Positions 56,553-57,168 of a DNA stretch of 64,000 nt are shown piece after piece; positions within the stretch are counted from its first letter, which is position 1, and each line of letters starts with the position of its first letter. The notes beneath the pieces were generated by a model, which saw nothing but the letters and a program-made list of their open reading frames with translations, made no database searches and had not been told where the DNA came from. Source of the stretch: Bacteroidia bacterium. Lineage in GTDB: Bacteria; Bacteroidota; Bacteroidia; B-17B0; Aurantibacillaceae. The DNA lies in contig JAEUTO010000006.1 of NCBI GenBank assembly GCA_016787785.1, positions 62,001 through 126,000 of the forward strand, in the 5' to 3' direction. The translations under genes were made by a program, and so were the position numbers.

Positions 56553-56696
56553 CTAAGATTCTATCTTATCAATTCCTCCGGTAAAACCTTTATGATTTGA
56601 ATTATGTTTACGAATTCTTTCAACTAGGTCATCGCCTGTATGACCAACATAGTATTTATTTTTTGATGGTGAGAATAATATATAAAGATGGGACAT
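56553..56696 (-). pseudogene. Truncated GIY-YIG nuclease gene copy
   Basis: Encodes the first 42 residues of the GIY-YIG protein at 56805-57053 ([20 protein letters not shown] onward) with near-identical DNA, then diverges after GFTGGI to DKIES and stops. The catalytic C-terminal half is lost, so it is non-functional. Upstream on the minus strand it is preceded by the same hairpin and tRNA-like element as the intact copy, showing one duplication event. Confidence 0.88.
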
Positions 56697-56703
56697 CCTA
56701 TAA

Positions 56704-56732
56704 ATAAAAAAACCCCGCCGAATGCGAGGTTT
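56704..56732 (-). terminator. Terminator hairpin, duplicated copy
   Basis: Minus-strand AAACCTCGC pairs with GCGGGGTTT around a short loop, then five or more T. It is the diverged duplicate of the hairpin at 57063-57090 and lies between the tRNA-like copy and the truncated GIY-YIG start. Confidence 0.65.
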
Positions 56733-56736
56733 TATG

Positions 56737-56814
56737 TGGGAACTACTGGGTTCGAACCAGTGACCCTCCCGACTAAAAGTCGGGATGCTCTTGAACCAGC
56801 TGAGCTAAGTATTT
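56737..56814 (-). pseudogene. Pseudo-tRNA with UUU-type anticodon loop
   Basis: The T-arm, D-arm and anticodon arm resemble the intact tRNA-Val at 57094-57168. The 5' acceptor strand reads AAATACT where GGGAGCT is needed, so the acceptor stem cannot form, and one extra A lies in the D-arm. The anticodon loop CTTTTAG would read Lys codons. The last bases of the intact GIY-YIG gene (stop TAG at 56805) lie in its 5' part. It is a product of tandem duplication, not a usable tRNA. Confidence 0.8.
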
Positions 56815-57053
56815 AAAATTAATTTTTCGATCATTTTCTTGCTCTTCCAACTTTTTATTTCCTTTTCACGTTTCATAGCTTGAGTTTTTGTGCTATATTT
56901 TTCTGAGTACTTTAATTCCCAATCACCAATTCCTCCTGTAAAACCTTTATGATTTGAATTATGTTTACGAATTCTTTCAACCAGGTCATCGCCTGTATGA
57001 CCAACATAGTATTTATTTTTTGATGGTGAGAATAATATATAAAGATGGGACAT
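56805..57053 (-). CDS. Small GIY-YIG nuclease family protein
   Basis: An 82-residue protein of the URI/UvrC-like GIY-YIG fold: [19 protein letters not shown] holds the YIL..YVG version of the GIY..YIG motif, followed by the Arg in LVERIRKHN and the C-terminal catalytic Glu near [10 protein letters not shown]. Such small nucleases are common in Bacteroidota, often near RNA genes; their role is unsettled, although homing or repair has been proposed. The start codon follows a terminator by ~10 bases, and the 3' end runs into the pseudo-tRNA. A truncated copy lies 109 bases downstream. Confidence 0.9.
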
Positions 57054-57062
57054 CCTATAAAT

Positions 57063-57090
57063 AAAAAAACCCCGCCGAAGGCGAGGTTTT
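57063..57090 (-). terminator. Rho-independent terminator of tRNA-Val
   Basis: Minus-strand AAACCTCGCC pairs with GGCGGGGTTT (one wobble) around TTC and is followed by seven T. It lies 4 bases after the 3' end of tRNA-Val and 10 bases before the GIY-YIG start codon. Confidence 0.85.
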
Positions 57091-57093
57091 ATG

Positions 57094-57168
57094 TGGGAAC
57101 TACTGGGTTCGAACCAGTGACCCCCTGCTTGTAAGGCAGGTGCTCTGAACCAGCTGAGCTAAGCTCCC
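57094..57168 (-). tRNA. tRNA-Val (TAC)
   Basis: A 75-base cloverleaf: acceptor GGGAGCT/AGTTCCC, D-arm GCTC/GAGC, anticodon arm CCTGC/GCAGG with loop CTTACAA (anticodon TAC, reading GTA), T-arm ACTGG/CCAGT with TTCGAAC, discriminator A. The CCA end is not encoded. All stems pair, so this is the only intact tRNA of the four-copy array. Confidence 0.93.

Follow-up and report, generated by a model that had tools for sequence, protein, structure and literature searches.

Small GIY-YIG nucleases beside intact and broken tRNA genes in Bacteroidota: a candidate tRNA-gene-specific homing element

Why should a small nuclease gene be interleaved with intact and broken copies of one tRNA gene? This question was raised by a locus of a Bacteroidia bacterium genome (G000, 4.6 Mb; G numbers denote genomes and L numbers loci) which lies in the window, the whole stretch of 64,000 nucleotides analysed here. 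The first-pass annotation had described a minus-strand unit of tRNA-Val, terminator and GIY-YIG nuclease gene that recurs with a broken tRNA and a truncated nuclease, and the coordinates as well as the Rfam and Pfam results agree with this description. Two further tRNA-Val 5' fragments, which that annotation did not contain, were found upstream. In minus-strand order, the locus consists of a leader, two hairpin-bearing tRNA-Val 5' fragments, an intact tRNA-Val(TAC), a terminator, the nuclease, a hairpin-bearing tRNA fragment, a terminator and the truncated nuclease. It is flanked by a zinc-ribbon gene (57400-58179, named by eye) on one side and by a 502-aa open reading frame on the plus strand (54900-56408) on the other.

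The native tRNA leader contains TACATTTG (57359-57366; this and all following features of the locus are on the minus strand), a match to TAnnTTTG, which we take to be the consensus of the Bacteroidetes -7 promoter box. The same leader, 58 or 59 nt long (one A more or less), precedes both the plain tRNA-Val of G018 and the broken copy of G020. The outer left remnant (57284-57343) comprises tRNA positions 1-28, the hairpin TCCCGACTTAAGTCGGGA and GGGTCAATAGCCCG, and the inner left remnant (57185-57246) carries the hairpin TCCCGACTAAAGTCGGGA and has a degenerate 5' end; both were recognized from the sequence. The inner remnant is more decayed than the outer one, so a simple order with the youngest copy inside does not fit the window. 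The intact tRNA-Val(TAC) was called by ARAGORN at 57093-57168 (Rfam, 69.5 bits) and is followed by an intrinsic terminator (57063-57086) and by the GIY-YIG nuclease of 82 aa (56805-57053), which consists of the catalytic domain only (Pfam PF01541, E 1.5e-16). The right remnant (56736-56809) corresponds to tRNA positions of about 6-76 with the hairpin TCCCGACTTTTAGTCGGGA for the anticodon arm; it reaches 35.8 bits with Rfam and was not called by ARAGORN. The intact nuclease ends with a stop codon (56805-56807) that lies within the 5' part of this right copy, just where the first-pass annotation had placed the end of the gene. A second terminator copy (56706-56729) is indeed present, as had been noted, although its description as diverged was too strong because one base separates both copies. 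The truncated second nuclease is a 47-aa open reading frame (56553-56696), of which 45 aa were matched with 93% identity to the intact nuclease. In all three broken tRNA-Val copies the anticodon arm is swapped for a TCCCGACT..AGTCGGGA hairpin, and the 4.6-Mb genome contains the pattern CATCCCGACT-N0-12-AGTCGGGAGGGTC at three positions, all within this locus.

In the tRNA loci of the genome, 53 distinct tRNA sequences were called. Two of them are Val(TAC), namely the window gene and a very divergent sequence, and no other Val anticodon was present among these calls. Since the intact window tRNA is the only canonical tRNA-Val called in the genome, we infer that its gene is probably essential. 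Elsewhere in this genome (L217, G000:C13:35200-41300), a dense run of tRNAs within 6 kb gave many Rfam tRNA matches between 35409 and 41086; it is possibly a phage-like tRNA array.

Relatives of the nuclease were searched in 60 genomes (that of the window, 36 others of the genus and 23 of the class) and were present in 45 of them, often as tandem pairs. From this search 90 loci were taken, the weakest matches being left out. The linkage and tree counts exclude L002, the loci with long open frames (L004, L006 and L007) and the repeats of the window genome's own loci (L001, L005, L008-L012, L042 and L043); domains covering more than 60 model positions were counted (n = 88). For 51 of these 88 domains, ARAGORN called a tRNA no more than 300 bp away, in every case on the same strand and never on the opposite one, with the tRNA upstream of the nuclease in 38 cases and downstream in 13; at L015, which is one of the 51, only a tRNA remnant was called that near. 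The chance expectation of such linkage is below 1% by our own estimate (about 45 tRNAs per 4 Mb). This strong association of GIY-YIG genes with tRNA genes in the genome and its relatives, with its uniform orientation, supports the proposal of the first-pass annotation that the nuclease gene and the tRNA travel or are duplicated as a unit, in a homing-type manner. At 34 loci the domain lay outside 300 bp; 18 of these showed tRNA matches and 16 were without any. The 18 include L003 and L038, which have a second nuclease copy further off, and 16 further loci with tRNA-matching fragments (L061 weakly, E 0.037). Fourteen of the 16 loci without a tRNA match form one clade of the nuclease tree, and the other two are L069, which is cut by a contig end, and L099. 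This tRNA-less clade of small GIY-YIG proteins comprises L059, L076-L079, L088, L090-L094, L096, L097 and L102. Moreover, L002, a GIY-YIG gene in the genome of the window, has no tRNA in its 3.2 kb.

In named genomes, a profile of the Val-type nuclease yielded at least 476 confirmed stretches. The best 80 of these are titled Bacteroidota (Algoriphagus, Chryseobacterium, Pedobacter, Mucilaginibacter, Cytophaga, Echinicola and others) with the exception of two MAGs labelled Limnohabitans (L241) and Bifidobacterium breve (L303), whose contigs are probably misbinned; five of the 80 had already been included in the first set. Among these best 80, a tRNA was called within 300 bp in 57, on the same strand in 56, and tRNA-Val(TAC) was upstream on the same strand in 40, a few of the other calls being remnants. 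In eight of the remaining 23, the contig starts within 160 bp upstream, and in ten a tRNA-Val or tRNA-Arg(TCT) is found further upstream, at 379-1100 bp, separated from the nuclease by a tandem copy of the latter in the loci inspected. When 247 genomes were drawn evenly from the class, the Val-type profile matched (E up to 1e-12) in 74, not all of them at tRNA-Val. ARAGORN was run on 21 of 30 loci from this draw, the other nine belonging to genomes already covered, and called a tRNA in 19 (nearest tRNA: ten Val, three Pro, three Ala, two Arg and one His). Finally, a tRNA was present at 14 of 18 further loci.

In order to follow the window's tRNA-Val locus in relatives, the zinc-ribbon gene was used as its marker and the nuclease was sought with the window protein. 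The 28 loci or genomes, tallied by eye, included eight with a nuclease (one of them, in G022, with stop codons inside it), 13 with a plain tRNA, three without a tRNA and two in which the contig ends too early; in G011, a hairpin remnant and a tRNA are followed by the contig end 133 bp on, without a nuclease, and in G009 the contig terminates in a hairpin remnant. The best allele pair at this locus is the plain tRNA-Val of G018 and the occupied one of G020. On the left side both have in common the leader and 28 nt of the tRNA, and on the right side the tRNA 3' half, CCA and a further 900 bp that are 86% identical. Between these breaks G018 has CCTGCCTTACAAGCAGG, the whole 17-nt anticodon stem-loop, which in G020 is exactly replaced by an insert of 470 bp with a hairpin at each end, starting with TCCCGACTAAAAGTCGGGA and ending with TCCCGACTAAAGTCGGGA. 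The insert contains a spacer, a complete tRNA-Val, a terminator, the nuclease and a piece of the tRNA 5' part. It follows from this layout that the native leader precedes the broken tRNA and that the working tRNA is the newcomer. In a second pair, tRNA-Leu(GAG) is plain in G000 and occupied in G020, where a leader and a tRNA 5' half with TCCCGATAGCTATCGGGA in the D-loop are followed by the nuclease, a second leader and the intact tRNA; the two alleles are 94% identical over 626 bp upstream, and their flanks downstream of the tRNA differ. A change from plain to occupied would be the simpler reading of these alleles rather than a proof of gain, because an exact loss by recombination between repeats could also recreate the plain allele. 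The existence of plain and occupied alleles is in line with joint movement of nuclease and tRNA, and the insertion inside the tRNA gene, the replacement tRNA brought along and the conserved hairpins go beyond what the first-pass annotation had described. The tRNA region of the window (57093-57170) is identical to the plain allele of G018 at 78 of 78 bases, so no resistance change is seen in the window tRNA. Horizontal transfer of the nuclease was considered on account of its synonymous divergence between G000 and G020 (0.71, compared with 0.27 for the zinc-ribbon gene) and was dropped: the Nif3 neighbour reaches 0.64, and therefore no recent transfer is visible between these two genomes.

We consider it rather probable that the window module is a chromosomal, tRNA-gene-specific homing element. 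According to this proposal, the small GIY-YIG nuclease would cut a specific tRNA gene, within or close to its anticodon arm, and the break would be repaired from the allele carrying the module, with the leftover tRNA halves serving as homology. The outcome, as in the allele pairs, would be an insert of about 0.45 kb within the resident tRNA gene. This insert would restore a working tRNA, either by a complete copy or by the missing half together with a promoter or terminator, and the resident tRNA would be left as one or two halves with a conserved hairpin in a loop or arm. Such a hairpin half could probably neither be cut by the nuclease nor fold as a tRNA. Arrays of remnants and nucleases around a single intact tRNA would then arise by repeated insertion or by unequal crossing-over of the direct repeats.

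The direct repeats of tRNA ends that flank the nuclease are reminiscent of attL and attR sites, and the module might be taken for what is left of an integrase-type element or of a tRNA-borne group I intron. This is exceedingly improbable. The 470-bp insert of G020 contains no integrase, no group I intron was matched by Rfam in the window, in 56400-57500 at E up to 1, or at L002 and L003, and not only 3' but also 5' ends of tRNAs are restored. Group I introns with homing nucleases occur in tRNA anticodon loops, and the insert in the anticodon region is similar in this respect; here, however, the tRNA is replaced and not spliced.

The window genome has a second locus of this kind at tRNA-Arg(CCT) (L003, G000:C1:21350-21943), the layout of which is mirrored: a 5'-truncated nuclease, a tRNA 5' half whose D-loop holds a 28-nt hairpin, a full nuclease, a duplicated leader and the intact tRNA-Arg. 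At L003, a recombinase gene (Resolvase, Recombinase and zinc-ribbon Pfam domains) ends in the tRNA-Arg. In G020 and G018 (L126 1-969; L127 2370-3698), a long open reading frame opposite tRNA-Val was identified by eye as a serine recombinase; its C-terminus is coded by the tRNA 3' half in G018 and by the hairpin remnant in G020. Judged by eye, an integrated element shares the tRNA-Val site with the module. The module could be thought of as a domesticated guard that occupies or cuts the tRNA attachment sites of integrative elements and so protects the host locus. The recombinase gene ending in tRNA-Arg and the opposite-strand frame of the same type (by eye), which ends inside the tRNA-Val 3' half or remnant, are compatible with this idea, which we nevertheless regard as quite unlikely: G020 has the module and the downstream frame together, therefore occupation did not exclude the latter, and the match obtained with PADLOC was weak (UzuA, E 0.0042).

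The nuclease tree, based on 75 columns, was compared with the tRNA isotypes. One row per locus was used, Met types were merged, tRNA-less rows were left out, fragment-only loci were labelled from the tRNA fragment match, and the ARAGORN Cys and Glu calls at L015 and L016 were relabelled Val by eye. For 65 loci with 10 isotypes, 18 isotype changes were required on the tree, compared with a minimum of 39 and a mean of 44.7 when the labels were shuffled 300 times. Clades with a single isotype were found for Val (12 rows, the main clade), Leu (seven), elongator-Met (six), Arg(CCT) (five) and Asp (five). Six Ala rows are grouped beside Val with an unresolved fork, and the clade of initiator-type Met has eight rows, one of which (L069) is without a tRNA. 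A separate lineage (L034 and L060) is also located at tRNA-Val or a tRNA-Val fragment. Ser, Pro and part of the Arg and Asp rows are scattered in the tree, and the clade of L064, L065, L081 and L099 has Met, Arg(ACG), Phe and no tRNA as neighbours; both observations, and the basis of 75 columns, count against specificity. Within this clade, L064 and L065 (G030:C1:1921772 and 3444366) have an identical nuclease domain beside different tRNAs (Met and Arg-ACG), maybe as a mobile or re-targeted nuclease copy.

The hairpins were likewise compared. The exact hairpin pattern of the window was found in one of 395 Bacteroidota genomes, that of the window only, and it is unsuitable across species because the stems differ between them. 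At 86 Val-type loci (five duplicates removed), a regular expression for the anticodon region detected 121 non-standard arms at 62 loci, 106 of them with a stem of at least 6 bp; these totals retain at least four normal stem-loops (CCTCGTTTACACCGAGG) and a few chance strings. Normal anticodon arms had a 5-bp stem in 82 of 85 matches (duplicates included). In 70 distinct remnant sequences, 489 of 560 cells were Watson-Crick pairs (mean of the shuffles 414, maximum 435). Pairs 2, 6 and 7 covary, with 64, 64 and 54 of 70 compared with maxima of 52, 53 and 44 in 2000 shuffles, which ignore relatedness; pair 8 did not covary beyond the shuffles in the same 70 sequences. At other isotypes the hairpin is situated in the D-loop or T-loop (Leu, Arg) or in the anticodon arm (Ala, Met, Asn, Asp, Ser). 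Two hairpins are present in L055 (tRNA-Ser GCT, G030) and three or four, by eye, in L019 (tRNA-Val), which suggests repeated hairpin insertion.

Similar palindromes such as TCCCGATAGCTATCGGGA are also dispersed in these genomes away from tRNAs. Palindromes of the form TCCCGA..TCGGGA numbered 0-8 in the 15 genomes without a nuclease match and 0-99 in the 45 with one (p 1.9e-6 by the Mann-Whitney test; partial rank correlation 0.44 when genome size and Y1_Tnp count are controlled for). This is only a hint that the dispersed palindromes are linked to the nucleases, with ancestry alone as the alternative, because the hairpins of the modules themselves and the tRNA-less clade were counted and the genomes are relatives of one another. 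For Y1 transposases as an origin of the hairpins the partial correlation was weaker (0.25), and this idea was not retained. REP palindromes are short, dispersed and go with RAYT transposases; the palindromes described here are likewise short and dispersed, whereas Y1_Tnp had no match in G030, which has 35 palindromes of the searched form, and none in the genome of the window. Two near-identical tRNA-like fragments in G001 (L162 and L164, G001:C1:2011512 and 2898329) contain a TCCCGAGTTTCACTCGGGA hairpin in the anticodon arm and have no nuclease match nearby; they could be solo remnants or copies of a lost module. L169 (G006:C23:162557-162712), also without a nearby nuclease match, has three TCCCGATAGCTATCGGGA hairpins 69 bp apart on the other strand and resembles, by eye, tandem tRNA-like units.

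PF01541 is the sole Pfam domain of the 82-aa window nuclease, and a separate DNA-binding region is absent. Six residues (S9, Y16, G18, H31, E63 and K67) are invariant in 23 proteins, and Y5, R27, T39 and A59 are nearly so. The AF2 model of the protein has a pLDDT of 92.5. A profile search of solved structures revealed two UPF0213 proteins (1zg2, E 5.6e-14; 1ywl, E 1.1e-12) and SLX1 (E 1.3e-7); 1zg2 was also the best match with Foldseek (E 8.3e-4), and I-TevI matched weakly. No family for the window nuclease was found in NCBIfam (E up to 0.01) and no relative in the phage collection (E up to 1e-3); IMG/VR contained two relatives, both close to contig ends. The dN/dS of the window nuclease against two relatives was 0.085 and 0.052, values which indicate that it is under purifying selection. 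The other pairs yielding a value ranged from 0.066 to 0.60, the latter for the tandem copies at L003.

These results bear on the possibility that the modules are a passive product, in which tandem tRNA duplications trapped a small GIY-YIG gene and REP-like palindromes entered the useless copies without any homing. Tandem repeats are prone to recombination, and the dispersal of palindromes away from tRNAs as well as their presence in tRNA-like fragments without a nearby nuclease match (L162, L164 and L169) would agree with such an origin. It would not account for nuclease clades that follow the isotype, for purifying selection on the window nuclease, for covarying hairpins at one fixed place in the Val remnants or for the exact replacement of the anticodon stem-loop, and we judge it to be unlikely.

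Tandem growth is seen in arrays. Ahead of its tRNA-Val, G001 has ten left units 89 bp apart, and G013 has three left hairpin-tRNA units. In G521, ten units of nuclease and remnant, each 457 bp long and almost the same in sequence, follow one called initiator-type tRNA-Met, and the tRNA-Asn locus has a single intact tRNA, preceded by three left units, together with four nuclease copies spaced at 379 bp. A lone intact tRNA amid left and right arrays would fit repeated insertion into the intact copy or unequal crossing-over on each side. In type III toxin-antitoxin systems such as ToxIN, tandem RNA repeats restrain a toxin, and by analogy the repeated upstream tRNA-hairpin RNAs might restrain a toxic nuclease. 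The order of the left arrays (ten units in G001, three in G013 and three in G521) before tRNA, terminator and nuclease resembles such systems, and the hairpins covary. Among the best 80 of the at least 476 named loci, however, the regular expression detected hairpin remnants upstream in 27 (downstream in 47, in either position in 54), and the solved folds closest to the nuclease are those of DNA-nuclease domains and UPF0213. We regard an arrangement of this toxin-antitoxin type as highly unlikely.

At the level of sequence, the insertion-like allele difference inside tRNA genes, the presence of a complete tRNA next to the broken one, the isotype-specific lineages, the conserved hairpins, the purifying selection and the tandem growth are demonstrated. 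Beyond the homing element preferred here for the window, a wider and more tentative proposal, which we hold to be possible rather than probable, is that the modules may represent a class of minimal mobile elements that is new and widespread in Bacteroidota. In this class, a GIY-YIG nuclease would swap the anticodon stem-loop of a chosen tRNA gene for a hairpin-bounded cassette that brings its own substitute tRNA. A functional role would fall to the covarying hairpins, as an end signal, a cut-proof cap or an RNA switch; they would have it in common with a family of REP-like palindromes which those nucleases would help to disseminate, and the element would have been re-targeted to the tRNAs of about ten amino acids. 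If the homing reading is true, probably essential tRNA genes of many Bacteroidota house a selfish element that repairs its own damage. It would also explain broken tRNA genes and tandem tRNA-nuclease arrays, several of which are found at contig ends. Moreover, a family of 82-residue single-domain nucleases with members apparently tuned to different tRNAs would offer a series for the study of site choice.

No published description of these bacterial modules was found in the open-licence PMC literature. The closest solved structures to the window nuclease are the GIY-YIG domains of UPF0213 and SLX1, for which we know of no linkage to tRNA. The closest protein system is SegB of the phages T4 and T6. 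According to the accessible parts of the report on it, SegB is a GIY-YIG nuclease that adjoins tRNA genes and cleaves within them, T6 SegB drives tandem amplification of a 718-bp unit of tRNA-Tyr and segB, and microhomology exists between the tRNA 5' end and the segB 3' end (PMC13096335). The modules resemble SegB in the GIY-YIG nuclease, the tRNA genes and the tandem tRNA-nuclease units; moreover, the nuclease sits at its presumed target and target alleles without a nuclease exist. In contrast to the window nuclease with its 82 aa and one domain, SegB is phage-borne and encoded by a 666-bp gene (about 221 aa in T4). The same parts of that report mention no tRNA-isotype preference and describe neither hairpins nor an insertion inside a tRNA with a replacement copy (PMC13096335). 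Closest in logic are the yeast WHO elements. In the portion of the literature on them available to us, the endonuclease gene adjoins an important gene, homing replaces one end of FBA1, the fragments are pushed aside into clusters with full-length FBA1 at one end, and allele-specific resistance is described (PMC7282813). As judged here from sequence layout, the target is likewise restored, the old end becomes a fragment and clusters are built. WHO elements differ in that they encode an HO-related protein in eukaryotes and have a protein-coding target, whereas a GIY-YIG nuclease and a tRNA target are found here. Compared with that account, the module described here restores either or both ends and adds hairpins, and resistance by sequence change is not seen, the window tRNA region (57093-57170) being identical to the plain G018 allele. 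If the proposed homing is true, these modules are to bacterial chromosomes what SegB is to phages and, as regards logic, what the WHO elements are to yeasts.
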